Assembly (NCBI GenBank): GCA_022539475.1
Contig: VCMS01000183.1
Span: forward strand, 1 to 64,000
Origin: Gracilaria domingensis
Lineage: Eukaryota; Rhodophyta; Florideophyceae; Gracilariales; Gracilariaceae
Direction: 5' to 3'
Length of the DNA stretch: 64,000 bases
Both the position numbers and the translations under genes were made by a program. Shown here one piece after another: positions 4,655-30,799 of this stretch. How positions within the stretch are numbered: the stretch's first letter is position 1; every line of letters begins with the position of its first letter. Under the pieces are notes generated by a model. It made no database searches. It had not been told where the DNA came from and was given only the letters and a program-made list of their open reading frames with translations.

Positions 4655-4792
4655 GTCAGTTTTAGCCGCTATCCTTGAAAGGATTCTAACAGCTGGGGAG
4701 CGAAGCTGTGACGCCTCGGGCGCCTTTAACTTCGGCTCGGAAGGCGCCCTCCCGTAGGGGAAACTCCCGAAGTCAGTTTTTCTGAACGGGGC

Positions 4793-6943
4793 TCACCGAA
4801 TTCGGTGCGTGAACTCCGTTCGGGGGCCTAACTGAACCCCATGCGTGGGTACTTCGCCTTGAACCTGGTTCGAAGGTGCCTGTGCCGGAACGGAGGGCTG
4901 AGCATAGACCGGAACCGGTAATCCCAGTTCAGCTCTGGCCTTATCATATTCCTTTCGTGGAACAGATTCCTTTTCCTCGGGCGTGAGGGCGTCGTAATAC
5001 GCAATAATTTTCGGCCGGTGCGACGGCGGAAATACGCACTGCGTCGATACGTGACCTGGAAGGTAGCACTGGTAACATATGACCGAGGCCGGTTTGTCGC
5101 GAGGGCGATTGTCCACTCGACGTTGTGGTGCTGTGTCCTTCCACCCTGGACGGTTCAGACGCGACGAATTGTTAGCGTAAGGCAGCGGGGCTGCAGGCAC
5201 CCGGACACCTTGGGCATACAATGCGGGGTCTTCTTCCGTGCTCGGAATCGAGGTTGACGGCAGGTCCGTAGATCCGTAAGAATCGGGGTTACTTCCGATG
5301 AAGTGGACGTTATCAGCATCACCGACAGCGGTTTCACGTCGCAAAACCGACATCGATGGTGACGAACTCTCCGCGAGTAGCGCTTTCGAGCGGCGCTGCC
5401 CCGGGTTGCGGGCTCGATACGTCTCTCCTTCCGCCTGGGCGTAATTAACCAACTCTAGGTACGTCATTCGGCGTTTTTCCTCGCGTCGGCGAGCGACCAA
5501 CGACCGAATGGTGGGGTCCAAACCATCAACAAACATGGTACACCGCTCCTGTGCGGAATACACATTACCACATCGGTGAAACGCTTTGTTCAACCGCGTT
5601 GAATAAACCGTTTCAGATTCTCCACTCTTCTGTCTAGTGTCGCGAACAGCAAGAGTAGCGCTGTAAATCGCGTTGGAAGTCGCGTACGACCTGAGAAGGT
5701 AGTTCACGGCTTCCGGCCAACACGTGACTCCTCCTTCCGAGGCTCTCGAGGTTCCTCGAACTGAGTTGTACTGATCTTCCGCAGTCCCTGTTAGGAAGTA
5801 CGGCAGTGCCACATATGCCTGTGCTTCACTCATACCGAGTATATCGGCCTCCTGGACGAACCTGGCAAGGAAATCCAAGATAAGGATAGGATCTGTCCTC
5901 GAGAACTTCCTTGTTTCAAGGGTAACATTCAACCTTCGAATGTAGTCCTTCACCTTACCGGTTCCTCGCGAGGAGCGATTCGAAGTAACATCCTCCAACC
6001 GATAATAGCGGTACGACAACAGCTTTGTGTAGAGCGGGTCCGTCGGCTTTAACTCTTTGAGTCCCAAGTGGCGCCGTCCTTTCACGCGTGATCTCATCAC
6101 TGCCTGAGTAGACTGCGTCGCTTTCGACCGTGTCGAACGTGACCTATGACGGTTGTCATCACTATCAGATGAATCTGACGAACTGTCTTCAGTCATGCCG
6201 CTCGAGTCAGAGCGCGATGAATCCGAATCATAGTGAACTCGTTTTGGGTGTCGACGTTTCTGCTTCACCGAACGATGGTCTTCATCCGCAGATGGATTTC
6301 CTTGAGGAACCTGTGCGTCCACAGCTTCATCCATACGGATTGTATCCTCCAGCGTTTCCAAGCGCGAACGAATTCGACCGATATCGGTGCGCATTTCCTC
6401 GACAAATGCCCGGTACTCCGTGACGAAGACGTCTGGGGTACCCAGATTTTCCATAATGGAATTCACGTCCCTTCTCAGAAGACGTAAGTCTCCTGAGACA
6501 TCCCTCACCTGGGCATTATCAACCTGCGTCCTCAACGAGGTAACATCCTGTAGGAGTTCCACGTGAGCAGCGTGATTAATATCCAAGCGGGATTCCAACC
6601 TAGCCAACTCGGCTACGGTAGCAGCGTTAGGGTTAACCATGGATGGTGTCTCAACGACGGGTTGAGCAGAACCCACGTTTTCCTTAGGTGCTTCCGTAAC
6701 TGAACGCGTTCTCCGGGGGCGGGGTACGACCTCAAGAGGTTGCGCCTCATCTGGGATAGACCGGGACGTCGGTGCAACGGGTGGAACCGCAGCTGACGAC
6801 CGCGCTGAACCAGCTCGAGAACCTCGAGGCGGTTGCGGCATACTGGAAACCAGTAGGCAATCTGATCCAGATGATCCAGTTAAACTCGTACACGAGTCCC
6901 AAAGAACAAGAAAACTCAATAAACCTTCTCGGTAAACCACCAC
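4793..6943 (-). CDS. gag: Element A Gag polyprotein
   Basis: An open gag of 716 codons, the best preserved part of element A. The N-terminus is basic and Pro/Ser-rich, followed by a coiled-coil-like stretch (about residues 105-215), a strongly charged Ser/Asp/Arg-rich segment (about 225-285), a capsid-like helical domain (about 300-500) and, near residue 625, one CX2CX4HX4C zinc knuckle (CYQCYLPGHVSTQC). Gag builds the virus-like particle and binds the element RNA. An internal methionine before PQPPRG may be the true start. Element C encodes a closely similar but broken gag at 28486-30624. Confidence 0.9.
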   Translation of the reverse strand: MVVYREGLLSFLVLWDSCTSLTGSSGSDCLLVSSMPQPPRGSRAGSARSSAAVPPVAPTSRSIPDEAQPLEVVPRPRRTRSVTEAPKENVGSAQPVVETPSMVNPNAATVAELARLESRLDINHAAHVELLQDVTSLRTQVDNAQVRDVSGDLRLLRRDVNSIMENLGTPDVFVTEYRAFVEEMRTDIGRIRSRLETLEDTIRMDEAVDAQVPQGNPSADEDHRSVKQKRRHPKRVHYDSDSSRSDSSGMTEDSSSDSSDSDDNRHRSRSTRSKATQSTQAVMRSRVKGRRHLGLKELKPTDPLYTKLLSYRYYRLEDVTSNRSSRGTGKVKDYIRRLNVTLETRKFSRTDPILILDFLARFVQEADILGMSEAQAYVALPYFLTGTAEDQYNSVRGTSRASEGGVTCWPEAVNYLLRSYATSNAIYSATLAVRDTRQKSGESETVYSTRLNKAFHRCGNVYSAQERCTMFVDGLDPTIRSLVARRREEKRRMTYLELVNYAQAEGETYRARNPGQRRSKALLAESSSPSMSVLRRETAVGDADNVHFIGSNPDSYGSTDLPSTSIPSTEEDPALYAQGVRVPAAPLPYANNSSRLNRPGWKDTAPQRRVDNRPRDKPASVICYQCYLPGHVSTQCVFPPSHRPKIIAYYDALTPEEKESVPRKEYDKARAELGLPVPVYAQPSVPAQAPSNQVQGEVPTHGVQLGPRTEFTHRIR

Positions 6944-7065
6944 GTCAGCGGTTCACGTTCAAAAGTTGTCAACCTCCAAAACTCTAAAGAGTCCCCTGAT
7001 CGTTGTCAGAAAACGGTGATCCGTCAACAATCAAGTCAATTCCACGACAGTGACCTAAAACGGTT

Positions 7066-7081
7066 CTAGGTCGGGAGACCA
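7066..7081 (-). other. Element A primer-binding site
   Basis: On the minus strand the sequence TGGTCTCCCGACCTAG begins three bases inside the 5' LTR. Its length and TGG start fit pairing with the 3' CCA end, acceptor stem and T-stem of a tRNA. The same 16 bases occur in element C and, with one change, in element B. I could not name the tRNA. Confidence 0.75.
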
Positions 7082-7084
7082 CTT

Positions 7085-8058
7085 TGTGGGGCAAACTCGG
7101 AAGAGTGAAACCCACCAGACTGTCCGAAGGTCCGCTCTCGTGAGAGATGGCAGACCAGTGACAGAGCCCTCTGTACCACCGTAACTCGGTTGTAAGGCCG
7201 AAGTGGCAACTGGCTATACCTACAGAGGTGATAGGCCACGTGGTGAGGAAACGATGAGAAACTCCAGAGATGGGGTGGTATCGGCAACGATGAAACACGA
7301 CCAACGACAGGTGTAGTCCCGAGAGGGAAAGCAACAGAAAACAACAACCAAACAACACCCACACGCGACGGGTAGGGCCTCCTCGGCACTGTGCCCGGAG
7401 CGGGGCGAGATCCTCCAACGGTAATGCACGGGTTTCCGTAAACACGGCAAAACTCTATACAGAGTCGGATCACTTCGTAATGTAGTCCTATACCTCCTCG
7501 GTACGACCCTCAGGTCCCGACATCAACGACAGATGTTCCTCAAAGGTACCGAGAGGGTAGGACCACCGTAACCAGACGTGGCTATACTCGCGAGAGTGAT
7601 AACCCACGTAGGCGGTTGGCGCCAGAGCCTCACTCGTGTAGAGTCCACTCGGGAGAGCGCTACTCGACAAAGAGTTCACTTAGAAGTGCTCGGGTTGACT
7701 TTACAAAGGTGCTCGCGACGACGAGGTCGAGCTCACCTAAGTAGGTCTAAACTAACTATGTACACGTGGTGCACACCCGCAGGGGTCCGTACACGTGGCT
7801 AGCCCAGTGTCAGGCACCTCAGGTGCACTACCTATTGTCCCGTAATATGCACACACACGGTGGTGTAGTACACGCGTCCACCTAGCGGTATTGGCCAGCA
7901 ATGGCAACCCTGATTACAGGTAACTGTGGGAAAGCCATTCCAAAAGTAACCGCCAAAATTGGGTCCAACTCATAACTCTTCGAGTGCATCCTCGTATCAC
8001 TCCCCTGAGTATATGAGGCGCATCATCCTGATAACCACGCAAAATGCGTTGCTCTACA
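7085..8058 (-). repeat. Element A 5' LTR
   Basis: On the minus strand this 974-base repeat starts TGTAGAGCAACGC and ends GCCCCACA, the usual TG...CA pair. It matches the LTR of element C at 30800-31774 and the partial LTR at 20223-20872. Two G-box hexamers CACGTG (7763-7768 and 7792-7797) with nearly identical flanks are kept in all three copies, and a GCACCT/AGGTGC inverted repeat follows them. These are promoter-type signals by position; their activity is inferred. Confidence 0.88.
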
Positions 8059-8609
8059 CAACGGGGGCTTTACAAGACCAAGTGGTGACGTCACGGGCTC
8101 CCGGGCACGTGTGCCTACTGTACCACGTGGGACGCGTAAGCGCAGGCTTGGACAAGACTAATTAGTCTATTTTCGTTAATTTAGAATTAATATTTACTCG
8201 GTAGTGTAGATATGTGGCCGGGGTGGTGCACCACAAATGCACCTCCCGGTGGCCCACGTGGCACTAGGCCCGTGAGAGCCGGAGGGGCGCTCGGGTGTAC
8301 TAAACCCCCGAGACGCCAACCTCCCACACCAAATGGTAAAGTCAAGCACCAACTAGGCTGATTTGACACCAGTTCGGTTCTACAGTCACCAATTGGTAAG
8401 TCTAGTAGTCCTCTAATAGTTTTGCTGACCTCGAGGGTTATACGTGCCTGCCGCACACCAGTGCAGGCGTATTTACCACTTGGTCACCGTGCACTATAGG
8501 CAACGGTGGGTGCTGCCGACCTATTAGGTGTCACGCGTTTCACTCCTCCGCCGGGTCGAGCCCACGCGGGGCTCCCCACTAGCAGCTCGCACCGATCGGT
8601 TATACCACA
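8059..8609 (+). repeat. Element B 5' LTR
   Basis: Repeats the sequence at 19230-19767. Compared with the 3' copy, which starts TGTAGTATAG at 19209, the first 21 bases are absent and the copy begins directly at the end of element A's LTR. It ends in CCACA five bases before the primer-binding site. It contains six CCANNTGG palindromes. Confidence 0.88.
8077..8130. promoter_or_regulatory. Cluster of palindromic sites in element B LTR
   Basis: Within 54 bases lie ACCAAGTGGT (8077-8086), the full CRE-type palindrome TGACGTCA (8086-8093), the G-box CACGTG (8106-8111) and CCACGTGG (8123-8130). The same cluster is repeated in the 3' LTR from 19248. By comparison with known bZIP and bHLH sites this looks like the enhancer part of U3. 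Binding is inferred, not shown. Confidence 0.5.
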
Positions 8610-8614
8610 TATTT

Positions 8615-8630
8615 TGGTCTCCCGACTTAG
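8615..8630 (+). other. Element B primer-binding site
   Basis: TGGTCTCCCGACTTAG lies five bases after the LTR and differs by one base from the site of elements A and C. It fits the 3' end of a tRNA (CCA, discriminator, acceptor stem, T-stem). The shared primer supports a common lineage for the three gypsy elements. Confidence 0.7.
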
Positions 8631-8742
8631 ATATCTGTGGATTACCAAGTGGTTTTGGGAAGGGAGGATTTGGAAGTCACGAGATACCCGAGTGGTTTGG
8701 TTCCCGTTGCAGAAGCAATTGGCTCCGACGCCAGTTACCTAA

Positions 8743-10731
8743 ATGGAGAAACGGGGCGCGCGCTACCCAAAGAGGGCGCCGAGCGCTCCACCAAGTGGTC
8801 ACCCCATACGGGGTTCAGTGTCCTATCCGGTGTTGGATAACCCGGAGGACCTGATTCGGAAGGAACGCCCACCCAGGGGGAAGAAGGAAGACCGAGAGGC
8901 TGGGGGCCCCTCGACCCTTCCCCGGGCTGACCAAGTGGACGGAGGAGCAGGCTCCGCAAGGGCGGAGCCCGCTCCTGTAACAACCCCAGTGGTAGACCAA
9001 ATGGAGGTGCCAGTCGGACCGCGACTGGACTTGGACGAGGTCACCCGAGTGGTAGTTGATCGAGCCTCCCAGGAGGTCCTCGACAAGGTACCTGTGGTGG
9101 TGTTACAGTACCTCGAGAACGAGGTACGAGGACACATCGACCGATTGGTTATGCTGGCTCTGCAGCAGCAGGGGGCTAAGCTTCAACCTGAGATAGTGGC
9201 CCAGGCCGCGCTCATGAAGCAAGCTCCCCCGCCTGCAGTAGACGCCACCAAACCACTTGGTATTCTCCACCCTAACCTTCCTACACAACCGACTGGTGAA
9301 GGATTTATCGACCGTATGGGGAAAGGGGCAGAGCCTCCAGGGATGGAGGGCCCGAGGTACGTTTACCTCCCCCAACCTACTGGTGTAGCTCCGTCAGGAC
9401 CAAGTGGTGGAGACCCTGATGGAGATTCGTCGAGCTCAGGAGACGAGCGTCGACGTAAACCAAATGGTAAGAAGAAGAAAACCAAAAGGGGAAAGAGAAA
9501 GAGTCGCCGGTCGGACTCGGACTCTTCGTCCTCAGACACCGATTCGGATTCGTCAGGAGACGACGACCGTACAGGTTCACGACGCAAGAGGAAGGACTCT
9601 CGCCAGAAGAAAGGAAAGAATCCCCGCAAGGGTAAGACCAAAAGGTATAACGATTCGGACTCAACTTCCGACGAGGAGACTGACCTAGAGGTGCTTACGC
9701 CGCTCAATGATTTATTCACCAAAGCGGTTGACTATCGTACCTATAGGTTAGAGAACAGACAGGCTGAGTATACCAAAGAGGTAGCTCAGAAGATAACGAA
9801 GCATCATAGGAAGCTTCGTTTTCAACTGGGTGAAACTCGCTTTAGCGGGGATGACCCTATTGCGATCATTGATTTCCTTCAAAGGTTCAAGATCGCTTGT
9901 GACCAGAATGGGTTTTCAGAGGCAGCAGCCATGTGGCTGTTTCAATTCTACCTAACTGGTCAGGCTGGAGCGTTGCTCCACAGTCGCCTCCAAGGAAACA
10001 CCATGGCGGTGGACGAAGACCAAACGGAAATGTTGACGACATACCCACAGGTGGTTAACTTCCTACTGGAAACCTACGCGACCGATGAGGTAATCCAGGA
10101 GGCGTACGCAGAGGTGCTTGCGTACCGCCAGCGCGCGGGACAAACCGAATTGGAATTCGCTCGCTCCTTATGGGCATTAGCCTCCCGCTGTGGAAGCGTC
10201 TTTACTACCAAAAGGTTGAAATCGATGTACGCCGACAACGTGGCGAAGTCTATCCGATCACAGGTTCGTAACTACCTAGCTACCAACCGCACGGTCGACT
10301 ACAACGCACTAGCCCGCCATGCACAGGGACTAGGCGACACCGTTCGGTCAGGGGCCAGGAAAGACTCCGCACCACTTGGCAAACCATCGAAGGAGAAAGG
10401 AAAAACCAGGCGGTCAGTGTTTGACGTAGAGGAAGAGGAGACCACTACGGAGGAGGCGTCCACACAATACGCCTCCCAGGGTCACCCAGTCCACTTGGTG
10501 CATGCGCAACCGACAACTCGATCGCACGGTAATACCTCTTGGTCCAGCTCGCTATCCAGCGAGCCACCCTCAAGACAAACCTCAGCTCTACCATCACAGG
10601 TATCCGTACCGGTCAGCCCGGTCCTAGCGGTACCATTCAAGCAATATGGTGAACGAGGACCACCCCCGCAGCAACGGAGTGCAGTACCTACTGGAGGCCG
10701 TCCCCATCGCGCGCGTCGTCGCTCGCGATGA
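8743..10731 (+). CDS. gag: Element B Gag polyprotein
   Basis: A 662-codon open gag. The first 220 residues are Pro/Gly-rich with a predicted helical stretch around 90-140. Residues about 225-320 form an extreme low-complexity block of alternating Ser/Asp and Lys/Arg runs, like SR proteins. A capsid-type helical domain follows (about 345-560), and a Ser/Pro-rich tail ends the frame. The zinc knuckle of this element (CX2CX4HX4C) lies just downstream in the overlapping frame at about 10757-10800. Gag forms the particle that packages element RNA. Several ACCANNTGGT palindromes lie inside, read in different frames. Confidence 0.9.
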   Translation: MEKRGARYPKRAPSAPPSGHPIRGSVSYPVLDNPEDLIRKERPPRGKKEDREAGGPSTLPRADQVDGGAGSARAEPAPVTTPVVDQMEVPVGPRLDLDEVTRVVVDRASQEVLDKVPVVVLQYLENEVRGHIDRLVMLALQQQGAKLQPEIVAQAALMKQAPPPAVDATKPLGILHPNLPTQPTGEGFIDRMGKGAEPPGMEGPRYVYLPQPTGVAPSGPSGGDPDGDSSSSGDERRRKPNGKKKKTKRGKRKSRRSDSDSSSSDTDSDSSGDDDRTGSRRKRKDSRQKKGKNPRKGKTKRYNDSDSTSDEETDLEVLTPLNDLFTKAVDYRTYRLENRQAEYTKEVAQKITKHHRKLRFQLGETRFSGDDPIAIIDFLQRFKIACDQNGFSEAAAMWLFQFYLTGQAGALLHSRLQGNTMAVDEDQTEMLTTYPQVVNFLLETYATDEVIQEAYAEVLAYRQRAGQTELEFARSLWALASRCGSVFTTKRLKSMYADNVAKSIRSQVRNYLATNRTVDYNALARHAQGLGDTVRSGARKDSAPLGKPSKEKGKTRRSVFDVEEEETTTEEASTQYASQGHPVHLVHAQPTTRSHGNTSWSSSLSSEPPSRQTSALPSQVSVPVSPVLAVPFKQYGERGPPPQQRSAVPTGGRPHRARRRSR

Positions 10732-10758
10732 AGGACCCACAACCGGCAATCTCCTCTG

Positions 10759-11922
10759 TTGGTTCTGTTTGTCGCCTCACCACTTGGCCACAGCGTGCCC
10801 AAGTGTGGCTCCGCAGAACAGGAACGCTCTCCTGACTGCTCGCCAGCAGAACCACCAGGATATATTTGGGCCCCCGGCGCGGAGCGCAGGCACGGGACAC
10901 GCAAATGCGCGACCCAATGCAGCCACACCTCATCAGGTACACCTCGTTACGGAGCAGGACCAAACGGATCCCGCCCCGCAGGCGGAAAACGCCGAACAGT
11001 TGGGATAGAGGCCTTCCCCAACTGTCCGAAGACGGAAGGCCTTCCAGAATCAAGTGGTGCAAGTATGGACAATTACCCATTGGTTACAGGGGAGGAGAGC
11101 CTCATGGACGGCACCGAACCGATATGCTTTCTCAAGCATAGTAACTATAAGGTAAACGTCACCCTCGGGTTTACTTCTAGCCACTTGGTACCATGCGTCA
11201 CTGTCCTGGACACCGGGGCAGGACCTAATCTGGTGAATGCCAAATTATTAACTAACAGACAACTTAATAAGCTTCAGCCATGTACATTAACTAACCCACT
11301 GGTTGACGCCAACAACAGACCACTAACCGTCATGGGAGCGCTTACCATAATGGTATTGATTGACACCATGAGGGTCCGAGTTCGCTTCATAGTCGTCAAC
11401 CAACTGGCAACAGACTGTATCCTCGGAACAACTTTTATAGACCAGCATGTCAGGGCAATTTTTCCACGTTCTAAGACAGTTCTGTTCCATAATGGCCCCC
11501 GGATCGCCATTATTGGTAACCACAAGGGTGCCTCTACGAAAGAGAACCGCACTCAACACCAACCGGTCCCGGAAAACACACTCTCCAACAAGGTGCGATT
11601 GGCAAAGGCGGTAACAATACCACCTATGAACCACTTGGTAGTGAAGGTCACATGCCAACAACCTGGCCTGTTATCCATTCAGAACCATTCACGGTTGGCC
11701 GAACGACACATGACCTTAATGGCGAATGGCATAGTCGACAACATACCGACAAAACCGTTTCAGGTCTACCTGAGTAACTTCAGCAACCGCCCGGTCAAGT
11801 TGCCAAAGCTCACCGTAATTGGTCTTGCCTTACCGGCTCCCGTACGATCTTTACAATTATACCACAATGGTCCCACGAGGTCGTGGATGCTAAGGAAGGG
11901 GGGGGCAGTGTCAATTCGTTGA
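10759..11922 (+). CDS. Element B zinc knuckle and aspartic protease segment
   Basis: The segment begins around the nucleocapsid knuckle and contains the retropepsin core VLDTGAGPNLV (near 11205-11240) and the later ILGTTFIDQH segment of gypsy proteases, with about 150 residues of linker behind it. The polypurine stretch GCTAAGGAAGGGGGGG (11889-11904) lies at its end, at the border to RT, and recurs behind the integrase at 15302. The protease would cut Gag-Pol inside the particle. Confidence 0.85.
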   Translation: MVLFVASPLGHSVPKCGSAEQERSPDCSPAEPPGYIWAPGAERRHGTRKCATQCSHTSSGTPRYGAGPNGSRPAGGKRRTVGIEAFPNCPKTEGLPESSGASMDNYPLVTGEESLMDGTEPICFLKHSNYKVNVTLGFTSSHLVPCVTVLDTGAGPNLVNAKLLTNRQLNKLQPCTLTNPLVDANNRPLTVMGALTIMVLIDTMRVRVRFIVVNQLATDCILGTTFIDQHVRAIFPRSKTVLFHNGPRIAIIGNHKGASTKENRTQHQPVPENTLSNKVRLAKAVTIPPMNHLVVKVTCQQPGLLSIQNHSRLAERHMTLMANGIVDNIPTKPFQVYLSNFSNRPVKLPKLTVIGLALPAPVRSLQLYHNGPTRSWMLRKGGAVSIR

Positions 11923-13415
11923 ATTCGTCGCGAACAGACCATATGGTGCAGCGACTGGCTGAGCGAGAAGACCAGAAACTGGAGCTCGACCCAGTGACCA
12001 ATTGGAAGACGGAGGTGAATATAGGACTTGAAGGGGAAGAGCTCAGAGCTCGGATCCTTGGACTCCTGGAGCCATTCAGTACCATGTGGTCGGGTAAGCT
12101 GGGAGCCATTAAGGCCACCCAGCACAGGATTGACCTCAAACCGGACTCCCGTCCCATCCACCAACAGCCATACCGCGCGGGACATAAGGCCCGTGAGGTA
12201 GAGCTGGAGGAGGTAGAGCGGATGCTCCGCGAGGGGGTTATAGAACCGGCAAACTCGGAATGGGCTAGCCCTGTAGTGCTAGTCCAAAAACGAGGAGAGA
12301 CCCGTATGAGGTTCTGTATTGACTACAGAAAACTTAATGCCGTAACGGTAAGGGACTCGTACCCCATCCCGAGGATGGATGAATGCATCGACTCCCTAGG
12401 AGATGCGAACATCTTTACCACACTGGACGCCAACTGCGGGTATTGGCAGATCGAAATACCAGAGGGTGACCGTGATAAGACTGCGTTTACATGCCACGCA
12501 GGCCTGTATCGCTTCTTACGCATGCCGTTTGGTTTAAGAAACGCCCCCGCTACCTTCCAAAGGGCGTTAGACATCATACTGTCTAAAGTGAAGTGGACAA
12601 CCGCATTGGTATACATAGATGACGTAGTCATCTACTCGAGGTCCATAGAGGAGCACTTCTCGCACGTCCAAGTGGTACTGCAGTTGCTACAAGAGGCAGG
12701 CGTGACCCTCAAACTACGAAAGTGTATGTTCTTCAACCAAGAGGTAGAGTACCTAGGGCATACAATAAGCCCCGGGAAACTTGAAGTGACCAAACGGAAT
12801 ATCCGAGCGGTACAGGAAGCGAAGCTCCCTACGTCGCAGACGGACATACGATCCTTTATAGGTCTATGCAACGTCTACCGGCGGTTCATCAAGGGTTTTG
12901 CAAAGATAGCCGCACCCCTGAACCGGAGGTTGCAGAAGGGGCAGCCCACACACTTTGACCACCTGGAAGAGGACGAGGTGGAGGCGTTCTATACATTGAA
13001 AGCAGCGCTTCTCTCCTCACCGGTACTGGCATTGCCCAAAACGGGACTCCCGTATACACTGGACACAGATGCGTCGGACGCCCAAATAGGTTGCTGCCTA
13101 ATGCAGGAACAGGAGGACGGCAAGCTCGCACCAATTGGGTATTGGAGTAGAGCTCTTAACCAAGCGGAGCAGAACTACACCGTAACGGAGAAGGAATGCC
13201 TAGCGGTTGTTTGGAGTATGCTCATGCTACGTCCTTACCTATATGGTGTGCGCTTCACGCTCCGAACGGATCACGACTCCTTGAGGTGGATATTAGGCTT
13301 GGCGGACGCATCGGGTCGTCTGGCCCGATGGCGTCTGAGACTCTCGGAGTTTGAGTACGATGTGCAGTACCGCCCGGGGTCAAGCACCGAGTGGCAGATG
13401 CATTGTCCCGGTTGA
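11883..13415 (+). CDS. Element B reverse transcriptase and RNase H
   Basis: A 510-codon open segment. It has the entry motif HRIDLKPDSRP and PYRAGHKARE, then WASPVVLVQK, FCIDYRKLN, the fingers/palm LDANCGYWQI, the LPFGL-type motif (MPFGLRNAPATF) and the catalytic YIDDVVIYS box at about 12610. The RNase H begins near 13050 (TLDTDASDAQIGC), includes the EKECLAVVW segment and ends with the TDHDSLRW motif at about 13265. The order and spacing are those of Ty3/gypsy Pol. The catalytic residues visible here are present. Confidence 0.93.
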   Translation: MDAKEGGGSVNSLNSSRTDHMVQRLAEREDQKLELDPVTNWKTEVNIGLEGEELRARILGLLEPFSTMWSGKLGAIKATQHRIDLKPDSRPIHQQPYRAGHKAREVELEEVERMLREGVIEPANSEWASPVVLVQKRGETRMRFCIDYRKLNAVTVRDSYPIPRMDECIDSLGDANIFTTLDANCGYWQIEIPEGDRDKTAFTCHAGLYRFLRMPFGLRNAPATFQRALDIILSKVKWTTALVYIDDVVIYSRSIEEHFSHVQVVLQLLQEAGVTLKLRKCMFFNQEVEYLGHTISPGKLEVTKRNIRAVQEAKLPTSQTDIRSFIGLCNVYRRFIKGFAKIAAPLNRRLQKGQPTHFDHLEEDEVEAFYTLKAALLSSPVLALPKTGLPYTLDTDASDAQIGCCLMQEQEDGKLAPIGYWSRALNQAEQNYTVTEKECLAVVWSMLMLRPYLYGVRFTLRTDHDSLRWILGLADASGRLARWRLRLSEFEYDVQYRPGSSTEWQMHCPG

Positions 13416-13560
13416 ATACCGAAGGATTGGACACTGACCCAGTGGACGACGACATCCCATGCTTTACTATAGAACCAGCTAACCACGAGGTCAATGAAGT
13501 TCTGAAGGGATACTGGCATGATGACAGTACGTACCAAGTGGTAGTGGAGACCCTCCTCCT

Positions 13561-15306
13561 GTGGAGGAAGGGGAACAGGCTCCAATCACCCGTGAGGAAT
13601 TCTTACGCGAACAATCGACCGATAGGTTGTGCAAAACGCTCGCTGACGTACTTGGAAGAAAGGATTCTCATTTCGACGTCGACCACAATGGGTACCTCAT
13701 CAGACGCTCACCTTTAGACGGAGCTCTCCAGAAGGTCGTACCTGAGTCATTAAGACAAAGGGTGTTATATTTGTCACACAATCCACGGCTTTCGGGACAC
13801 CCTGGAGCCACGCGGTTGTACTATACCCTTCGGAGGCAATTCTACTGGCCGCATATGGCTAACGATGTATATACCAATGTGGCGCAATGCAATTCGTGCA
13901 TTAAGACCCGAGGTGGTGTGGCGAAGCACAGGAAGTACCTAAAGCTATTCCCGGCGGCGGGGCCCCTGGAATTCGTAGCAATCGACATACTGGGTCCCCT
14001 GCCCAAGACCTCAGAGGGTTACCGCTTTGTAGTAGTCATAACCGACAGGTTCACAAAGCTCACCAGAGCCATACCTCTGAAGAACCAAACGGCAACGACA
14101 CTAGCGACAGCCTTCCTGGAGAATTGGGTCTACCCGTACGGTGCTCCCATGTACCTACTGACCGATAACGGTTCGAACCTAGCTTCTAAGTTCTTCGAGG
14201 CGGTTTGTACAATGCTAGGGGTCAAGCACTACTTCACCACGGCCTATCATCCGCAAACAAACGGCCAAGTGGAACGCTTCAATAAGACCCTAGTGGCACG
14301 CCTACGGCACTATGTCGAAGAGCACCAAACCACATGGTCTGAGTATGTCCAACCATTGACATATGCGTACAACCTCCAGGTCCACAGGGTCACTCAAACA
14401 ACCCCATTCGACCTGGTACTTTCGCGAACACCACATGGTATTATCGTCCAGCCCGGACCTGACCGCTCGGAAGCGGCCGGGACACTCACACCGGCGAAGG
14501 TCAAGAGAAACATACTCCAGAAGTTACGCGCCGCTTTGGCTGCTGCCAAAGTTAAGATGACATCAGCCCAAGAACGGTATAAAGCGGACTATGACCGAAC
14601 GGTGAGCAAAGTGACCAAAGTGGTAGCAGGAGACATGGTCTTCCTTGACGTGCCACCAAATGGTAAGCGACCAACCCCAGCGGAGATGGAAGAGGACATC
14701 CGCCTTGAGGCGGATATCAATTCTAAACTACTACCCAAGTCCACGGGACCATACAAGGTGATTCGCTCCGACGAGCATACCGCTACGGTCATAATGGAAG
14801 GTTTGGAGAACACGGTCTCCATCGACAGGATTGTCAAGGCCGCACAACCGACGACAGCGAATGCACAACCAATAGGTGAGCCAACGCAGCAGGAAGCGGA
14901 GAGGGAGCAAACGTCTCCCAAACCCCCCCCTATGATGAGTCAGCCGAGCGGTCAACCTTCCACCAGAGCCGTACCGGCTGACCCCACGACCCAAGCGGCA
15001 CAGGAGATCGAGCCTCCGCAAGACCAACGGGTCACACCACCCACGGGGAGCCACGCACCCCATGACCAAATGGAAGAGTCACACCCTCAAGTAGACACTC
15101 AGGAGTGCGCTATTGACACCATTGTAGGTCACGAACACACCACAAAGGGTATGCGCTACCGGGTAAGATGGTATGGATGGTCGCCCGAGCACGACTCTAT
15201 GGAACCACCTGGTCATATCCCTAACAACTTCATCATCCGATACTGGCGCAAACAAGGGCGAACGCCCCCACCAACTGGTATTGCTCCGCGTGGTACGCGT
15301 CGCTAA
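13561..15306 (+). CDS. Element B integrase with C-terminal chromodomain
   Basis: An open segment of 581 codons. The HHCC zinc-binding domain lies near 13780-13905 (HNPRLSGHPG to CNSCIKTRG). The DDE core shows VAIDILGPLP, LLTDNGSNL and HPQTNGQVERFNKTL, so both Asp residues and the Glu are present. A GPY-like region follows and then a Pro/Gln-rich linker. The last 60 residues, from about 15100, form a chromodomain (RYRVRWYGWSPEHDSMEP), which in chromoviruses can steer insertion towards marked chromatin. This assigns element B to the chromoviruses. Confidence 0.93.
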   Translation: MEEGEQAPITREEFLREQSTDRLCKTLADVLGRKDSHFDVDHNGYLIRRSPLDGALQKVVPESLRQRVLYLSHNPRLSGHPGATRLYYTLRRQFYWPHMANDVYTNVAQCNSCIKTRGGVAKHRKYLKLFPAAGPLEFVAIDILGPLPKTSEGYRFVVVITDRFTKLTRAIPLKNQTATTLATAFLENWVYPYGAPMYLLTDNGSNLASKFFEAVCTMLGVKHYFTTAYHPQTNGQVERFNKTLVARLRHYVEEHQTTWSEYVQPLTYAYNLQVHRVTQTTPFDLVLSRTPHGIIVQPGPDRSEAAGTLTPAKVKRNILQKLRAALAAAKVKMTSAQERYKADYDRTVSKVTKVVAGDMVFLDVPPNGKRPTPAEMEEDIRLEADINSKLLPKSTGPYKVIRSDEHTATVIMEGLENTVSIDRIVKAAQPTTANAQPIGEPTQQEAEREQTSPKPPPMMSQPSGQPSTRAVPADPTTQAAQEIEPPQDQRVTPPTGSHAPHDQMEESHPQVDTQECAIDTIVGHEHTTKGMRYRVRWYGWSPEHDSMEPPGHIPNNFIIRYWRKQGRTPPPTGIAPRGTRR

Positions 15307-15486
15307 GGAAGGGGGGGGGGTTATCGAAGCCGTTGAACGCCACGGGGGTTATCGAAGCCGTTGAACGCCACGCTACACGAAAAGCTAACTAACTAACCTA
15401 ACAGGAAAACAAAAGAAGATCAGAGATCACAATGCAAGACACTTTATTAGTCGAGAAGAATCCACGAGAGCGAACCACGAGGTGAC
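15307..15486. other. Spacer with 28-base tandem repeat and antisense poly(A) signal
   Basis: Directly behind the integrase stop lies a G-rich polypurine run (15303-15320), then a 26-base unit repeated twice with a 28-base period (15319-15344 and 15347-15372). At 15443-15448 the plus strand reads TTTATT, so AATAAA on the minus strand, 40 bases beyond the end of the minus-strand ORFs. This is a fitting polyadenylation signal for the antisense gene. Confidence 0.55.
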
Positions 15487-15726
15487 TTAGGAGGCCTTGG
15501 AGGACCCACGGCCACGTCCGCGTCCACGACCGGTTCCACGACCGCGACCACGTCCACGGGAGGTCCCGCGAGATGAAGCGGAACCTCCACGACCAGAGGA
15601 CACCGACACAGGTCCGGCGGAGCTTCCACCCCCGCCGCTAGCCGCGCTCGCTGGCGCACCACCACTTGGTAAGGGAGCAGAAGTACCAGCAGGTCCCGCA
15701 GGGGTACCGCTGCTGACTACCGGCAT
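15487..15726 (-). CDS. Small RG-rich antisense ORF of element B
   Basis: Seventy-nine codons on the minus strand, ending 40 bases before an AATAAA. The first half is Pro/Gly/Ser/Ala-rich; the last 35 residues are almost pure Arg-Gly repeats (GRGRGRGTGRG). Such RGG/RG tails bind RNA or nucleic acid in many proteins. It overlaps the end of the large antisense ORF by a few bases. I can say no more about its role. Confidence 0.5.
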   Translation of the reverse strand: MPVVSSGTPAGPAGTSAPLPSGGAPASAASGGGGSSAGPVSVSSGRGGSASSRGTSRGRGRGRGTGRGRGRGRGSSKAS

Positions 15727-18263
15727 GGTATTCGCAGGACCAGTGAGTGGATGGAAGGAAGGCGGTAAGCTAGACGGAGGGATGCCACCAGAGGTCGGAG
15801 GAGCAAGACCACTAGACGGCCCTGCACCGGGGTCAGACCAGTAGGCGGCATAGGAGCACCGGACGTCGACGGAAGCGGAGCCGAACGGAAACCAGTTGAG
15901 AAACCACTTGGTGCTCCTGTCCCAGTACTTGCTGGAGGAAGAGGAACGTTGTGAGGACCAAGCGGAGTATGGAAAGGTGCCGAAGGATCACCACCAGGAG
16001 GTCCACCAGGGAGTTGATACGTACCAAGGCCACCAAAGCCTACCATTGGGGTCGCAGGTTGCTGTGACGCAGGAGCGTACGGGTTGAAACTTTCCACAGG
16101 GGGTCGATGTAACGGCGCGTGGCCTTCCACAAGGTTGCTCAACTGACCAACATAGGCTGTCACCTCACGGTAGAGATTGCGCTGGAAGTAATCGCGGAAC
16201 TGTCGCAGCTCAGAAGTGCGCCGCTCGTGGTGAGCAACCACGGGGAGCAAGTTGGTAAGAGTATCCACAGCGGTGAGGATGTCATTTGGACCAGGACGGT
16301 TGAAGTGCACCATCGAGGCGTGGTTGAGACGAGCCAAAGCGCTCCGTATCGCGCCACTATCACCACCAGGGGGCACCGGATTCACCGGAAGCGACTGGAA
16401 ACCAACCAGAAGAGGCCCCTGGGCAGCCCGTCCGGGAGGGTGAGCAGCCGCCTGAGGGTTCGCCGGACCACTTGGAACAGGCGCAGCCACGCTGGTCGGA
16501 GGAGTAGCCTGTACAGGTGCCGACGGAGGCAATGCGGGGGACTCATAGTTCTCGGCAGCCACCATCACGGTATCGTCATTACCAAATGGGTCTTCGCCAG
16601 CCATGTGCTGCTGTTGGAGAGGCACGATGCTATGAACCTCCGGGTCGTAGACATCCCAACCCTGTTCAGGCCCCCAATTGTGGTTACTTACCGCAGTGAG
16701 GTAACCATCCAACTGCTGCGCAGTATATTTGGTGCCCTCCACGATGTTGGAGAGCCCCATGGCACGAATGTCGCCGACCACATCGTTGGGAATATTGAAG
16801 ATACGACCAAATGGTTGAGTTCCGCTGATCCCGACAGACTTGTCAGGGCAGCGCGTGTCCCAAGTCACACCTTCCACGGAAGCCTGAAGGGCGAGGATAG
16901 CCACCATGACGGCCCACTCGCTGCGCGCGACCGACCAAACGGCATATGCGTTGTTCCTCTCGAGGGAGATGCTACTACCAAAGTACGCAAGGACCGGCGG
17001 GGTCGGCACTTCCAGCCACTGACATACTTCATAGTGGTCCCACCAAGAGGGTCGATTGACATACCATGTCCGGCGGTTGTGGTCGCTCTGCGACCAATAC
17101 TCAACGTTGTGGAACAGGAACATGGTCCGCGTACGGTTGTTACGGTGACGAACACGGCTCTCAGCCATCGCATCGGTCGCCCACCTCCCACGGTCAGTCC
17201 AATAATTGGTATCTAAAGGGCGCTCAAACGCGACGTACTCCAGATCGACCTCGATGTGCGTAGCAGGTTCGTCCAAGCGGTGAAGGATATCTACCAAACG
17301 GCGGAAGTAGTGGACCTCCCCATCGCAGCGGATGAAGGGGAGATCCGATGGTACGGCCACGGGGATGTAGTATAGAAACTTCGTGTGTCGCTGCCGCGCA
17401 TGGAAACACTGTTGTCGACCGAACCGGCTCTGCTTCTCGCCCTTGCGTGGTGGAGGAGGTGCCATAGGCACCGCCTCCAACCGGCGACAATCCCAACGGG
17501 CAATTGCGGTATACTGCGTGAGACCCATGTGGCGGAACCGCAAGGGACAGAATGAGGAACTGATGTGGAAAGGCCAGTTCCCCAGAGCGACCAATTCGGC
17601 GGAGATATCGGCAAAGCGTGCACCATAGTGGGCATGCGGCTGCCCGTGCGTCCTATTAAGGTCATGAGGATTCAGCTGTTGAGCCTCCACCGTACCGGCC
17701 ACCGCAAGAGGGTTAACATTGCTCGGACCCGCGACGGCCGCGTAGGGATCATACCCACCGCGACCGTAAGGGTCTTGACGAGAGCGCGTATTCGACCGCG
17801 TGTTAGGCTTGAAGATGCCACCGCCGCGGCCGCGCGCTACCCCAGGGGTCTTGCCAGACATCCTCGACCGGGAGGCAACAGTTTCGCGAACCGAACGGTT
17901 GACCTCCGCCGAGGGGGAGACTTCAGAAGCCGAATATCCCTTTATAGGGTCGTAGTGCGGCTCCTCCAATACCAAGTGGTTGGCCTCCACGGGAGCCTCG
18001 GCGCCCGATGGAAAGGACACGGGTGTACCGGTCTGGGACGGCAGACAGGGCTGCGAAGAGTCAACCACGTGGTAATGCGATTGAAACGGCGCCGTCTCAC
18101 CCCCGGGGTCCACCACACCGGGAAGGGCGCGCGTGATGCCCTCCTCGGCACCGTCTTCACGGCGTTCGAACGTCATCGACCACCCCGTTGGGGAAGCGGG
18201 TTGATCACCCATGAGGTATAAAAGGCGCGAGTTGGAGCGAGAGCGTGCCACGGAGGATACCAA
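15717..18263 (-). CDS. Large antisense accessory protein of element B
   Basis: An open frame of 848 codons on the strand opposite to gag-pol, filling the space between integrase and 3' LTR. It has a Ser/Arg-rich start, a GRGGG patch near residue 145, a globular part of roughly 200-520 rich in Trp and aromatic residues (for example WWDHYEVCQWLEV and VARSEWAVMVAILAL), and a long Pro/Gly/Ala-rich C-terminal third. No zinc finger, transmembrane segment or known catalytic motif is visible. The globular part is clearly similar to the antisense product of element C (21400-22100), so it is not a chance frame. Antisense ORFs behind pol are known from some plant gypsy elements; whether these are related I cannot tell. 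Function unknown. Confidence 0.8.
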   Translation of the reverse strand: MVSSVARSRSNSRLLYLMGDQPASPTGWSMTFERREDGAEEGITRALPGVVDPGGETAPFQSHYHVVDSSQPCLPSQTGTPVSFPSGAEAPVEANHLVLEEPHYDPIKGYSASEVSPSAEVNRSVRETVASRSRMSGKTPGVARGRGGGIFKPNTRSNTRSRQDPYGRGGYDPYAAVAGPSNVNPLAVAGTVEAQQLNPHDLNRTHGQPHAHYGARFADISAELVALGNWPFHISSSFCPLRFRHMGLTQYTAIARWDCRRLEAVPMAPPPPRKGEKQSRFGRQQCFHARQRHTKFLYYIPVAVPSDLPFIRCDGEVHYFRRLVDILHRLDEPATHIEVDLEYVAFERPLDTNYWTDRGRWATDAMAESRVRHRNNRTRTMFLFHNVEYWSQSDHNRRTWYVNRPSWWDHYEVCQWLEVPTPPVLAYFGSSISLERNNAYAVWSVARSEWAVMVAILALQASVEGVTWDTRCPDKSVGISGTQPFGRIFNIPNDVVGDIRAMGLSNIVEGTKYTAQQLDGYLTAVSNHNWGPEQGWDVYDPEVHSIVPLQQQHMAGEDPFGNDDTVMVAAENYESPALPPSAPVQATPPTSVAAPVPSGPANPQAAAHPPGRAAQGPLLVGFQSLPVNPVPPGGDSGAIRSALARLNHASMVHFNRPGPNDILTAVDTLTNLLPVVAHHERRTSELRQFRDYFQRNLYREVTAYVGQLSNLVEGHAPLHRPPVESFNPYAPASQQPATPMVGFGGLGTYQLPGGPPGGDPSAPFHTPLGPHNVPLPPASTGTGAPSGFSTGFRSAPLPSTSGAPMPPTGLTPVQGRLVVLLLRPLVASLRLAYRLPSIHSLVLRIPCR

Positions 18264-19196
18264 CCGAGAGGGGGAACACCACCAATTGGATGACTAGATG
18301 AAACCTGAGGGGTCACAGAGAACGGGCACGCCGCTCGAGCGAGCTGACACACCGTGAAAATGACCAGGGTTGTGCGCCGGCTGGACGGGTTCCGTGAACA
18401 AGGGAGGTCACAACCACCCCAGAGGGAACCTGAGGGACGGAAGGAGACCGCGAGGAACCAGGTGGAGGGGCGCTGAACGCCGCGCAGTCGGGTAAACCCC
18501 TCGGCTGGACCTGAATCAAGCCTGAACACCACGATGAGGCAGACCCCTAGGTAGAAGCGGCGTCAGCACCGGTACGGTCACGAAGTCTGAAGAGCCACGG
18601 GCAGGAGTCTCCTCACCCTCGACGCGGCCGCCAAGGCAACGACACCCCAGTGGCGCCCTCACTCAAGCAGAGAGACAGTACGTGTCGGAACCAACGAGGT
18701 ATCACCTCAGTACGGCACAAGACCAAGTGGCCAACAAAGAATAGGAGCGACACCACGAGGGGGCGGTGTGCCGATCGGTTGACAACTGCGAACCCCACCG
18801 AAGGGAGGCTCGAAACCAACTGGTAAGCCGGGACTAACCCGCTCAGGGGGAGGACGGACAGGGAAGATGGAGTGGCGGACTCCTCCGGGAGGGACAGAAG
18901 AGGCGAAGACAACCACGTGGTACCAAGCGCGCGACAAGATCAACCTGAATGGTCGCGGTTCGCGGTTTCGCGTCCCAATACCACGAGGGATGTAAGGTAC
19001 GGTCGCACCTACCACAGGGGGTACGGCGGCGTGGGTAATGGCGCCGCAGTGCATGTGGCGAACCGCGCCGTGCACCGCGCCGTCTTCGCGTCATCGCGAG
19101 ACGCGCCGTGCGCCAGGCGATGCGCGCCGACGACCGTTTGGCGAAAAGGCGGCAAACGCCGTGGGAACTTCGCAGCCACGGGGCGTGCCTGTCGGT
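18264..19196. other. GC-rich leader between antisense gene and 3' LTR of element B
   Basis: About 930 bases without a convincing gene on either strand. It would be the 5' leader of an antisense transcript started in or near the 3' LTR. It holds CCANNTGG palindromes at 18282, 18723, 18815 and 18912. Several short frames here look like chance frames of GC-rich sequence. On the plus strand GGTATAAAAGG lies at about 18214, inside the antisense coding start, of unknown meaning. Confidence 0.5.
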
Positions 19197-19208
19197 AGGA
19201 GGGGGGTC
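19197..19208 (+). other. Element B polypurine tract
   Basis: AGGAGGGGGGTC lies immediately before the TG of the 3' LTR. In the family this RNA stretch resists RNase H and primes plus-strand DNA. Element C has a similar tract at 20873-20885 on the minus strand. Confidence 0.75.
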
Positions 19209-19767
19209 TGTAGTATAGCTCGGCCAGATCAACGGGGGCTCTACAAGACCAAGTGGTGACGTCACGGGCTCCCGGGCACGTGTGCCTACTGTACCACGTG
19301 GGACGCGTAAGCGCAGGCTTGGACAAGACTAATTAGTCTATTTTCGTTAATTTAGAATTAATATTTACTCGGTAGTGTAGATATGTGGCCGGGGTGGTGC
19401 ACCACAAATGCACCTCCCGGTGGCCCACGTGGCACTAGGCCCGTGAGAGCCGGAGGGGCGCTCGGGTGTACTAAACCCCCGAGACGCCAACCTCCCACAC
19501 CAAATGGTAAAGTCAAGCACCAACTAGGCTGATTTGACACCAGTTCGGTTCTACAGTCACAATTGGTAAGTCTAGTAGTCCTCTAATAGTTTTGCTGACC
19601 TCGAGGGTTATACGTGCCTGCCGCACACCAGTGCAGGCGTATTTCCCACTTGGTCACGTGCACTATAGGCAACGGTGGGTGCTGCCGACCTATTAGGTGT
19701 CACGCGTTTCACTCCTCCGCCGGGTCGAGCCACGCGGGGCTCCGCCACTAGCAGCTCGGCACCGATC
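19209..19767 (+). repeat. Element B 3' LTR (cut by gap)
   Basis: Starts TGTAGTATAG and from 19230 matches the 5' LTR with about seven differences, most of them close to the gap. Its last 15 or so bases lie in the N run. The near identity of the LTRs is the basis for calling element B young. Confidence 0.92.
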
Positions 19768-20222: not shown

Positions 20223-20872
20223 GAGATCCTCCAACGATAATGTGCGGGGTTCCGTAACCACGGAAAAACTCTAATACAGAGTCGGTCCTTGCGTAATCAA
20301 GTCCTATAACCTCCTCGGTACGACCCTCAGGTCCGACATCAACGACAGATGTTCCTCAAAGGTACCGAGAGGGTAGGACACCGTGACCAGACGTGGATAT
20401 ACTCGCGAGGTTGATAACCCACGTAGGCGGTTGGCGCCAGAGCCTCACTCGTGTAGAGTCCACTCAGGAGAGGGTACTCGACAAAGAGTGCACTTAGAAG
20501 TGCTCGGGTTGACTTTAAAAAGGTGCTCGCGACGACGAGGTCGAGCTCACCTAAGTAGGTGTAAACTATCTATGTACACGTGGTGCACACCCGCAGGGGT
20601 CCGTACACGTGGCTAGTCCAGTGTCAGGCACCTCAGGTGCACTACCTATTATCCCGTAATATGCACACACACGGTGGTGTCGCACACGCGTCCACCTAGC
20701 GGTCTTGGCTAGCAATGACAACCCTGATTTCAGGTAACTGTGGGAAAGCCATTCCAAAAGTAACCGCCAAATTGGGTCCAACCCACAACTCTTCCAGTGC
20801 ATCCTCCTATACTCATCCCTGACTATATGAGTCGCATCATCCCGATTACCACGCGAATTGCGTTGCTCTACA
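20223..20872 (-). repeat. Element C 3' LTR (partial)
   Basis: Matches 7409-8058 and 31121-31774 and ends in GCTCTACA, the complement of the LTR's TG start. The two CACGTG boxes lie at 20577-20582 and 20606-20611. The remaining third is inside the gap. Confidence 0.88.
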
Positions 20873-20885
20873 TCTCCCCCCTCTT
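20873..20885 (-). other. Element C polypurine tract
   Basis: On the minus strand AAGAGGGGGGAGA runs straight into the TGTAGAGC start of the 3' LTR. This fixes the orientation of element C and the LTR boundary. Confidence 0.75.
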
Positions 20886-20942
20886 AGAGCCGAGAACGAC
20901 TTCGAAGCTGAAGTTTGGTGCGAAACGCAAGTACGTATATAC

Positions 20943-22736: not shown

Positions 22737-23103
22737 GATGACCGGCGGGGCTGGAGGACTGGGTCCTTAGTATAAGATAGAAACAGTAAAACCATCTAGT
22801 GGTAACTTCCCTTCACCTTTTGCCTGTTCTCCGCGGACTTGATCGATCTCCGATTATTTGTCCACTCACACTGCGTTCCTGTGTACCTCACTTCCTTGGT
22901 GCTTCTTTTACTCTAGCCGTTTTTAAATCGGTACAACCGGCATTTCGGTATGCTCTTCTTTCTTTCTTCTCACTTCTTCTGATTCAGTCTTTACCACTTC
23001 GTTGGTCTTCTTCCTTCATTCATCCCCACGCAGAAGAGGCCAACTCTCCATCCTGAGTCTTCCGCATCGCGGTATAGTTGATAGCTCCTCAGCGGGAACG
23101 GTT
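22737..23103. other. Spacer in element C, no gene seen
   Basis: A pyrimidine-rich stretch between the antisense gene's end and the chromodomain end. No convincing gene or repeat is visible. Confidence 0.5.
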
Positions 23104-23457
23104 TTATCCCACCTGGTCTTGGTCCAGGTTGGCCGGCAACGCTGACCGAGTGCGACGGTGGTATGAAACGATCTTTGACCTAGGTAGGTGCTTCACCGGC
23201 TCCATGGTGTCCTCCTCGGCGGAGTAGCTATACCAGCGCACTTGGTACAGTACCGTCCAATCGGGTTCTACAACATGACGTACGATACGTTCGACCACGT
23301 ATTCCTGTGGATACACCTCGGTGTTTGACTGCTCTCCTTCACCCATTGTGGTTCCGCACCTTTCGGGGTGGCGAGGTGGTAGCCGGCTGACCTCTAGAGA
23401 GGTCTCTCTTGGACTTAACCGGTCACGACTCACTCCGAGTTCCTCGCTGCGCGACAA
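23104..23457 (-). pseudogene. Element C chromodomain end of Pol
   Basis: An open minus-strand stretch of 117 codons whose middle (YVVERIVRHV, then YQVRWYSYSAEEDTMEPV) is a chromodomain with the aromatic and acidic positions typical of chromoviruses. It resembles the end of element B's Pol. About 1 kb separates it from the integrase core, filled with a Thr/Ser/Pro-rich linker (24040-24408) and decayed coding sequence. Confidence 0.75.
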
Positions 23458-27400: not shown

Positions 27401-27499
27401 TGTATCTTCCGTTCCTGGTGGCAACGCTTTACCCTCGGTGGGTGCCAGCGACTCGGTGACTTCGCTTGCCGGGGTAACCGATGCGGTAAAAGCGGTTTC

Positions 27500-28441: not shown

Positions 28442-28485
28442 CTTCGGCTCGGAAGGCGCCCTTCTCGTAGGGAAAACTCCGAAAG

Positions 28486-30624: not shown

Positions 30625-30780
30625 GAGAACTCAATAAACCTTCTCGGTAAACCACCACGTCAGCGGTTCAGGTTCAAAAGTTGTCAACCTCCAAAACTCC
30701 AAAGAGTCTCCTGATCGTTGTCAGAAAACGGTGATCCGTCAACAATCAAGTCAATTCCACTACGAAGACCTAGAACGGTT

Positions 30781-30796: not shown

Positions 30797-30799
30797 CTT

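Follow-up and report, generated by a model that had tools for sequence, protein, structure and literature searches.

The window analysed here is a 64,000-nucleotide stretch of DNA from the red alga Gracilaria domingensis (contig VCMS01000183.1, positions 1 to 64,000 of the forward strand), which carries three neighbouring mobile elements, A, B and C. Element B, our main subject, is a chromodomain gypsy (Ty3-type) long terminal repeat (LTR) retrotransposon that contains many copies of a short symmetric motif. Its parts follow the order expected of that class, i.e., LTR, gag, protease, reverse transcriptase (RT)/RNase H, integrase with a chromodomain at its end, and LTR, and the segment 8059-8589 matches 19230-19758 as the LTR pair. 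The pol region matched the Pfam families RVT_1 (E 4.5e-34), RT_RNaseH (7.3e-36), Integrase_H2C2 (1.1e-15), rve (5.7e-13) and Chromo (4e-6), and the protease frame matched gag-asp_proteas at E 0.01 with 16.8 bits, under the cut-off of 28.2. Between pol and the 3' LTR lies an antisense frame of 848 amino acids, counted from the first listed start codon, which in this copy terminates earlier than the frames of 935-946 amino acids that are open in many other copies. The B-type family is large, with at least 40 LTR matches (40 scored of 300 candidates) and at least 58 matches to the antisense protein in the genome (53 scored of 1147 candidates). About 300 kb of letters were sampled from this one genome, including 60 loci (L004-L063) fetched by similarity to B, two of which are the window itself and some of which are two parts of one copy. 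Searches of the genome for elicitin and for a spliced leader of the dinoflagellate type gave no match, although for elicitin no control was positive either. Relatives were also sought in the viral_contigs and genome_contigs collections, and none were found there.

An earlier note on this DNA had described B as saturated with the palindrome CCANNTGG and its ten-base form ACCANNTGGT. The excess is real and larger than was noted, as B (8059-19767) contains 52 copies of CCANNTGG and 27 of ACCANNTGGT, compared to first-order Markov expectations of 4.25 and 0.25. Within 8059-19208, where about 44 and more than 20 copies had been counted, the actual numbers are 47 and 25; all 23 ten-base sites listed at the time are present at their coordinates (23/23), and four further ones were found (at 12081, at 14329 and two in the 3' LTR). 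Over the whole window, CCANNTGG occurs 72 times and ACCANNTGGT 28 times, against dinucleotide-shuffle means of 15.2 and 1.03, and none of 100 shuffles reached either count. In the reading frames of B, 33 copies of CCANNTGG compare with a mean of 9.7 (maximum 19) when synonymous codons are permuted and of 13.9 (maximum 23) when junction dinucleotides are also preserved, and 16 copies of ACCANNTGGT with means of 2.5 and 3.9 (maxima 6 and 7; 300 shuffles of each kind). The counts in B thus stand far above both codon- and dinucleotide-preserving shuffles, and the earlier view that protein sequence does not account for the sites holds. The motif is likewise present in other B-family copies, with 5 to 15 ACCANNTGGT at each of the 60 loci, and genome-wide ACCANNTGGT was found 4164 times compared to 1620 for the reversed pattern.

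CCANNTGG and ACCANNTGGT represent the most common version of a less strict dyad, the inverted repeat ACC-N(4-6)-GGT. When all inverted 3- and 4-base words were scanned with spacers of 0-12, this ACC/GGT dyad came out on top in B, and ACC-N6-GGT came out on top in A and in C. Element B holds 123 ACC-N(4-6)-GGT dyads against about 15 in dinucleotide shuffles: 63 with a spacer of four, 40 with five and 20 with six, where 100 shuffles gave about 5 at each spacer and never more than 11. At the remaining spacers up to 12 the counts were inside the shuffle range, and direct and everted arrangements of ACC and GGT in B were at chance level, so that only the inverted arrangement is enriched. Substitution of the inner letters of the N4 dyad brought the counts near or below expectation, and CC...GG is therefore required; the outer A/T is variable (ACC..GGA 24 vs 9.3 expected; ACC..GGG 27 vs 7.8). 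At N5, AAC..GGT (24 vs 5.2) and ACC..GTT (16 vs 4.2) were also raised, which we attribute to overlapping N4 sites that have an A in front. Beside the arms, N4 sites of B prefer A..T (72 of 126 arm ends), and N5 and N6 sites show little beyond the triplets.

The earlier suggestion that the palindrome is E-box-like does not fit this description. The pattern needs CC...GG with a variable outer A/T, dyads of N5 and N6 are enriched as well (40 and 20 vs about 5), and the arms of ACC-N5-GGT or ACC-N6-GGT cannot share one CANNTG, so that a reading by basic helix-loop-helix proteins is not supported.

One explanation is that the motif has no function and was generated by composition, codon use, duplication or a mutational process. 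B is indeed rich in ACC (370 ACC and 274 GGT triplets), which raises the expectation from triplet counts to 8.7 per spacer and about 26 for N4-N6. However, the excess survives shuffles that preserve codons and dinucleotides: in the reading frames of B, codon-preserving shuffles gave 11.8, 7.9 and 4.5 dyads of N4, N5 and N6 where 45, 29 and 18 are present, and none of 500 shuffles reached any of these counts. Composition and codon bias were rejected on these shuffles. Tandem duplication was rejected as well, as no tandem arrays bear the sites; the tandem repeats of B are few and short, four rows confined to 15316-15372 and 15506-15558. The first of these intervals, between integrase and the antisense gene, holds two perfect 28-bp tandem copies. 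Together with the conservation data below, these results leave an origin without function extremely improbable.

It is also conceivable that the dyads act in RNA, as short dispersed stem-loops in the genomic transcript. Enrichment confined to inverted arms at spacers of four or more would suit a stem, and in A and C the arms of N6 sites are frequently flanked by G..C, which could lengthen one. The A..T beside the arms of N4 sites in B, however, would leave a loop of two bases, and wobble variants at N4 were not favoured (observed/expected: ACT..GGT 1/3.7, ATC..GGT 3/2.3, GCC..GGT 8/4.7). Other self-complementary triplets taken together were only slightly raised (232 vs 182 at N4, 229 vs 182 at N5). 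On the flanking A..T in B and the wobble variants we rejected RNA stems, which we regard as very improbable.

Table 1. Features of the window: elements, genes and ten-base palindromes
Feature	Position	Strand	Remark
Element B	8059..19767	+	123 inverted ACC-N(4-6)-GGT dyads (63 N4, 40 N5, 20 N6; LTR copies included)
B 5' LTR	8059..8589	+	end approximate
B gag frame	8743..10731	+	
B protease frame	10732..11922	+	
B RT and RNase H frame	11883..13415	+	
B integrase frame	13561..15306	+	with chromodomain
B antisense gene	15717..18263	-	proposed source of dyad-binding protein
B 3' LTR	19230..19767	+	reaches N gap at 19768-20222
Element A	1..8058	-	left end cut by contig start; spacer peak N6, raised N5-N9
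Element C	20223..31774	-	decayed frames; spacers N6, N8, also N5
C antisense gene	20823..22736	+	broken pieces
ACCANNTGGT	8077..8086	.	earlier list
ACCANNTGGT	8328..8337	.	earlier list
ACCANNTGGT	8388..8397	.	earlier list
ACCANNTGGT	8475..8484	.	earlier list
ACCANNTGGT	8644..8653	.	earlier list
ACCANNTGGT	8790..8799	.	earlier list
ACCANNTGGT	9252..9261	.	earlier list
ACCANNTGGT	9399..9408	.	earlier list
ACCANNTGGT	9459..9468	.	earlier list
ACCANNTGGT	11630..11639	.	earlier list
ACCANNTGGT	11938..11947	.	earlier list
ACCANNTGGT	12081..12090	.	newly found
ACCANNTGGT	13533..13542	.	earlier list
ACCANNTGGT	14329..14338	.	newly found
ACCANNTGGT	14430..14439	.	earlier list
ACCANNTGGT	14655..14664	.	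earlier list
ACCANNTGGT	15204..15213	.	earlier list
ACCANNTGGT	15270..15279	.	earlier list
ACCANNTGGT	15661..15670	.	earlier list
ACCANNTGGT	15903..15912	.	earlier list
ACCANNTGGT	16806..16815	.	earlier list
ACCANNTGGT	17971..17980	.	earlier list
ACCANNTGGT	18064..18073	.	earlier list
ACCANNTGGT	18815..18824	.	earlier list
ACCANNTGGT	18912..18921	.	earlier list
ACCANNTGGT in 3' LTR	19248..19257	.	newly found
ACCANNTGGT in 3' LTR	19499..19508	.	newly found

The dyads of B are located in the LTRs, leader, gag, protease, integrase and antisense gene, with the lowest density in RT (5.4 per kb). Their mean distance is about 95 bp, with an irregularity resembling random placement, and centres are never closer than 19.5 bp: no pairs lie within 18 bp, compared to 8 to 11 at random, and none of 1000 random placements gave none. 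This minimum distance looks like a footprint for each site. No helical phasing was observed, with vector lengths of 0.006-0.025 for periods of 10.0-11.0 bp; longer periods of 147, 167 and 200 bp gave 0.070-0.079 vs about 0.044 by chance, and one of 180 bp gave 0.025. Genome-wide, dyads of N6, N8 and N12 numbered 24756, 17811 and 14575, and their reversed controls, which are too noisy to carry weight, numbered 20211, 17929 and 22548; the N8 count was not above its control.

Comparison of copies indicates that the arms are held by selection. Locus L064 is a B-type copy whose divergence from B is 7% over gag-pol and 20% over the antisense region. Between the two, 3 of 97 four-fold degenerate sites in dyad arms were changed; for spacers the figure was 15 of 76, for copies of the same triplets that lie outside dyads 34 of 161, and for all remaining sites 258 of 1180 (arms vs the last two classes, Fisher 3.2e-7). 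Correspondingly, 61 of the 73 N4 and N5 dyads of B were preserved in L064, against 63 of 114 pairs of the same triplets at spacers of 10-30 (p 4e-5), and in the reverse direction, from L064 to B, 61/73 were preserved against 62/100 controls. Across 58 B loci, variable positions made up 56/516 of the arms and 135/783 of the same triplets outside dyads (p 8e-4), with 984/5957 for other positions and 61/394 for spacers. Variants carried by at least 20% of copies followed the same classes, at 2/516, 12/783, 112/5957 and, for spacers, about 1%. In the alignments of copies that the earlier note had proposed, dyad arms are thus better conserved than their surroundings, both in L064 and in the 58 loci. 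Since the arms are preserved and the spacers are not, even at four-fold sites, selection holds the arm letters as nucleotides, apart from the proteins they encode. This contradicts the earlier idea that the motif is the target of a mutational or repair process, and it also stands against an absence of function.

The L064 copy is itself a mosaic: measured against B, the four-fold sites that have changed number 105 of 1051 in gag-pol and 205 of 463 in the antisense gene, a contrast that would suit an exchange of the antisense module between lineages. Another B-family copy, 88-92% identical to B, carries a T-rich insertion within its RT region (L003:2330-2390). Three plasmid records matched the RT in a search.

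Elements A and C, which are 91% alike over 6 kb, carry the same arms at other distances. The earlier statement that both show chance numbers is correct for a spacer of N4 alone; with the spacer left free, A is enriched at N6 and C at N6 and N8. In A, ACC-N6-GGT occurs 16 times vs 2.5 in shuffles, and in C the counts against shuffles are 29/3.2 at N6, 21/3.1 at N8 and 17/3.6 at N5. The gag and protease of A also exceed codon-preserving shuffles (N5 6/1.8, N6 11/2.1, N7 7/2.0), and none of 500 shuffles reached the observed number at any of the three spacers. Compared to B, A and C both give a less strong and less uniform signal, and the spacer spectra of B and C are different (chi-square over spacers 4-9, p 8e-13). 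Two further C-type loci agree with C: L065, a decayed copy with 690 of 6001 bases N, has 11 N6 and 10 N8 dyads, and L066, a 2.25-kb part of another copy, has 6 and 8, where shuffles gave about 1.9 and 0.7.

The antisense gene is common to B- and C-type elements. In comparisons of B with four divergent copies (L064, L055, L056, L062), the ratio of nonsynonymous to synonymous differences (pN/pS) was 0.18-0.24 in the gene's own frame, 0.28-0.34 in the opposite-strand frame that shares its third positions and above 1 in the other four frames; against two close copies it was 0.33-0.35. The gene's own frame is therefore the selected one. In C, the piece at 21726-21953 matched a profile of the B antisense protein with E 5.5e-4 among the 613 frames of the window, and L066 contains an open C-type antisense frame of 660 amino acids that matched the B profile with a domain E of 2.3e-6 over about 170 amino acids in a one-sequence search. 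By these profile matches, the antisense proteins of B- and C-type elements are distantly related over about 170 amino acids. At least 149 matches to the C-type gene were found (147 scored of 897 candidates), some of which are pieces of one copy. The C pieces gave one Pfam match, to Sas-5-like implico, at E 0.0076 and 16.3 bits, below the cut-off of 27.

Strict inverted arms, a preferred distance between them, a tolerant outer letter and a free centre are together the mark of a DNA-binding dimer. We propose, with a probability of roughly 0.5, that a dimeric protein, most likely the antisense product, binds DNA at the dyads and so marks the element as its own. A symmetric dimer would bind the dyads on double-stranded DNA, each subunit would read one ACC/GGT arm, and the dimer would fix how far apart the arms lie, which is 4 to 6 bases for B and mostly 6 and 8 for C. 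The earlier note had put first a site bound by some protein of the element or of the host, and this fits both the dyad geometry and the selection on the arms. The dimer would be the product of the antisense gene located between pol and the 3' LTR: this protein is conserved and has diverged between families as the spacers have, and a common arm with a shifted distance, in families that each have a diverged copy of a shared antisense protein, points to that protein, to which we give a little better than even odds as the candidate binder. With sites that lie about 95 bp apart from one end of the element to the other, it would coat its own DNA, and the coverage from LTR to LTR fits such coating. 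Coating would let each family recognise its own copies and most plausibly keep them free of host silencing; anti-silencing is the likeliest purpose, but we suggest it only loosely, at clearly less than even odds. More generally, families of LTR retrotransposons in one genome may have one half-site and one kind of antisense-encoded DNA-binding protein in common, and distinguish their own DNA from that of relatives by arm distance, in the B-type element with a code written about 100 times inside protein-coding sequence at synonymous positions. This extension is tentative, and we place it somewhat short of an even chance.

The dimer could instead belong to the host, as a transcription, insulator or architectural protein recruited by the elements in the way that gypsy recruits Su(Hw). 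The arms are common to families with very different antisense proteins, and arm conservation would look identical under such recruitment. A single host protein, however, does not predict a spacer preference that shifts between families in one host (p 8e-13), and the sites fill coding DNA and not one regulatory block; we consider a host dimer unlikely. An element protein other than the antisense product, Gag or integrase, might also read the dyads, either for packaging or compaction of complementary DNA or as a mark on its own DNA against self-insertion (target immunity). The packaging or integration mark that the earlier note had raised may apply. Coverage from LTR to LTR suits a role on the whole molecule, the integrase of B carries a chromodomain, and the gag and integrase of C are about 33% and 40% identical to those of B, so that the change of spacer could follow them as well. 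Against this, nested insertions exist among these elements, such as the A-type LTR stretch in L064, and to our knowledge no Gag or integrase reads spaced dyads; we regard this explanation as improbable. The nested stretch (L064:2966-3939) is 98% identical to window positions 8058-7085 and lies between the integrase and antisense gene of the B-type copy.

Several results weigh against the antisense protein as a dyad reader that marks its own DNA. The gap in close pairs is weaker in L064 (2 pairs within 18 bp vs 5.7) and absent in C and A, and the N6 dyads of B were preserved in 11 of 18 cases (0/2 and 11/16), no better than controls. Between A and C, conservation is one-directional, with N5-N9 dyads preserved in 35/37 vs 38/53 (p 0.005) in one direction and an unclear 35/48 vs 38/59 (p 0.23) in the other, and in A the dyad topped the scan of all triplet pairs narrowly (score 5.9, next 5.3). 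Another inverted dyad, ACTC-N(3-6)-GAGT, is present in excess in A (15 vs about 0.8), C (16 vs about 1.3) and L066 (6 vs about 0.3) and is not enriched in B (1 vs about 0.3 expected); recognition in A and C therefore differs by more than the spacer. Seven of the listed copies of this dyad in A lie at 7095-7999, in or near the LTR. As for the protein itself, the L066 frame scores well against the B profile by domain alone, and over its whole sequence the score falls below zero (-11.9 bits, E 1). The B antisense protein had no significant Pfam match, a sequence search of PDB gave a sole match at E 0.73, and its structure model was unusable (mean predicted local distance difference test score, pLDDT, 34.8). 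Lastly, the genome gave no match to the C5 DNA methyltransferase family (PF00145), for which 10 of 14 control genomes were positive, although a gene split into exons might have escaped the search. Removal of DNA methylation, as by VANC, would thus be without an obvious target, and the silencing that is countered, if any, would be of another kind.

VANC is the protein of Arabidopsis VANDAL transposons for which the density of a short motif gives family-specific anti-silencing; in the parts of those reports consulted, the VANC21 motif is mainly noncoding, in one orientation and often in tandem repeats (PMC5735166, PMC10398659). As far as those parts describe, VANDAL families and B are alike in having a short motif that is repeated many times within the family and seldom occurs outside it, in that related families of one genome have different motifs, and in a transposon-encoded specific binder, established for VANC and proposed for B. 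Unlike them, B is an LTR retrotransposon and not a VANDAL-type DNA transposon, its dyads are symmetric, single, in coding as well as noncoding DNA and preserved at synonymous sites, and the families here differ mainly in spacing. Kinship to VANC in sequence was covered by the Pfam scan, in which the B antisense protein had no significant match.

Similarly, the plant gypsy elements Retand, Grande and RIRE2 have a conserved antisense open reading frame between pol and the 3' LTR that is suspected to encode a DNA binder; the sections of that report drawn on here describe Retand elements as non-chromoviruses, nearly all with an antisense TRP28 domain (PF04195) (PMC11963269). B resembles them as a gypsy element with a conserved antisense gene in the same place. 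It differs from Retand, as described there, in being a chromodomain element, and PF04195 was not among the Pfam matches of its antisense protein up to E 10. Dispersed dyads, as found in B, are not mentioned in those sections for Retand, Grande or RIRE2. Among the titles and abstract openings listed by literature searches, in which subscription journals were thinly covered, none showed a dispersed dyad or an antisense binder for LTR elements.

The gypsy element of Drosophila carries about 12 clustered Su(Hw) sites in its leader that are read by a host zinc-finger protein. Like B as interpreted here, it has numerous sites that serve a single DNA-binding protein, but its sites form one leader cluster for a host protein and those of B are spread along the element. 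Nuclear receptors, auxin response factors and Zn2Cys6 proteins are dimers that read the spacing of two half-sites. There, as proposed here, the half-site is constant and the spacer decides which protein binds; their half-sites differ from those of B, and they are cellular transcription factors and not marks through a mobile element. The Zn_clus domain of Zn2Cys6 proteins (PF00172) matched neither the B antisense protein nor the genome, and the control genomes gave no match to it either.

If the antisense protein reads the dyads, LTR retrotransposons would have a self-marking system comparable to that of VANC, written through coding sequence. The antisense genes that several gypsy lineages carry between pol and the 3' LTR would then gain a possible function, and pairs of protein and site with different spacers would make the co-evolution of a parasite's DNA-binding protein with its own DNA directly testable. 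Dense selection at the nucleotide level within mobile-element genes would also bias dates and codon-based estimates made on them.

In the rest of the window (31775-64000), ACC/GGT dyads were inside the shuffle range. On the minus strand, 56378-59741 holds Copia-type gag/integrase and RT frames, within a region (53001-64000) without ACC/GGT dyad excess. At 38296-40098, a frame of 600 amino acids combines a DDE_1 superfamily endonuclease domain (2.1e-14) with a weak match to HTH_psq and was read as a pogo-like transposase.

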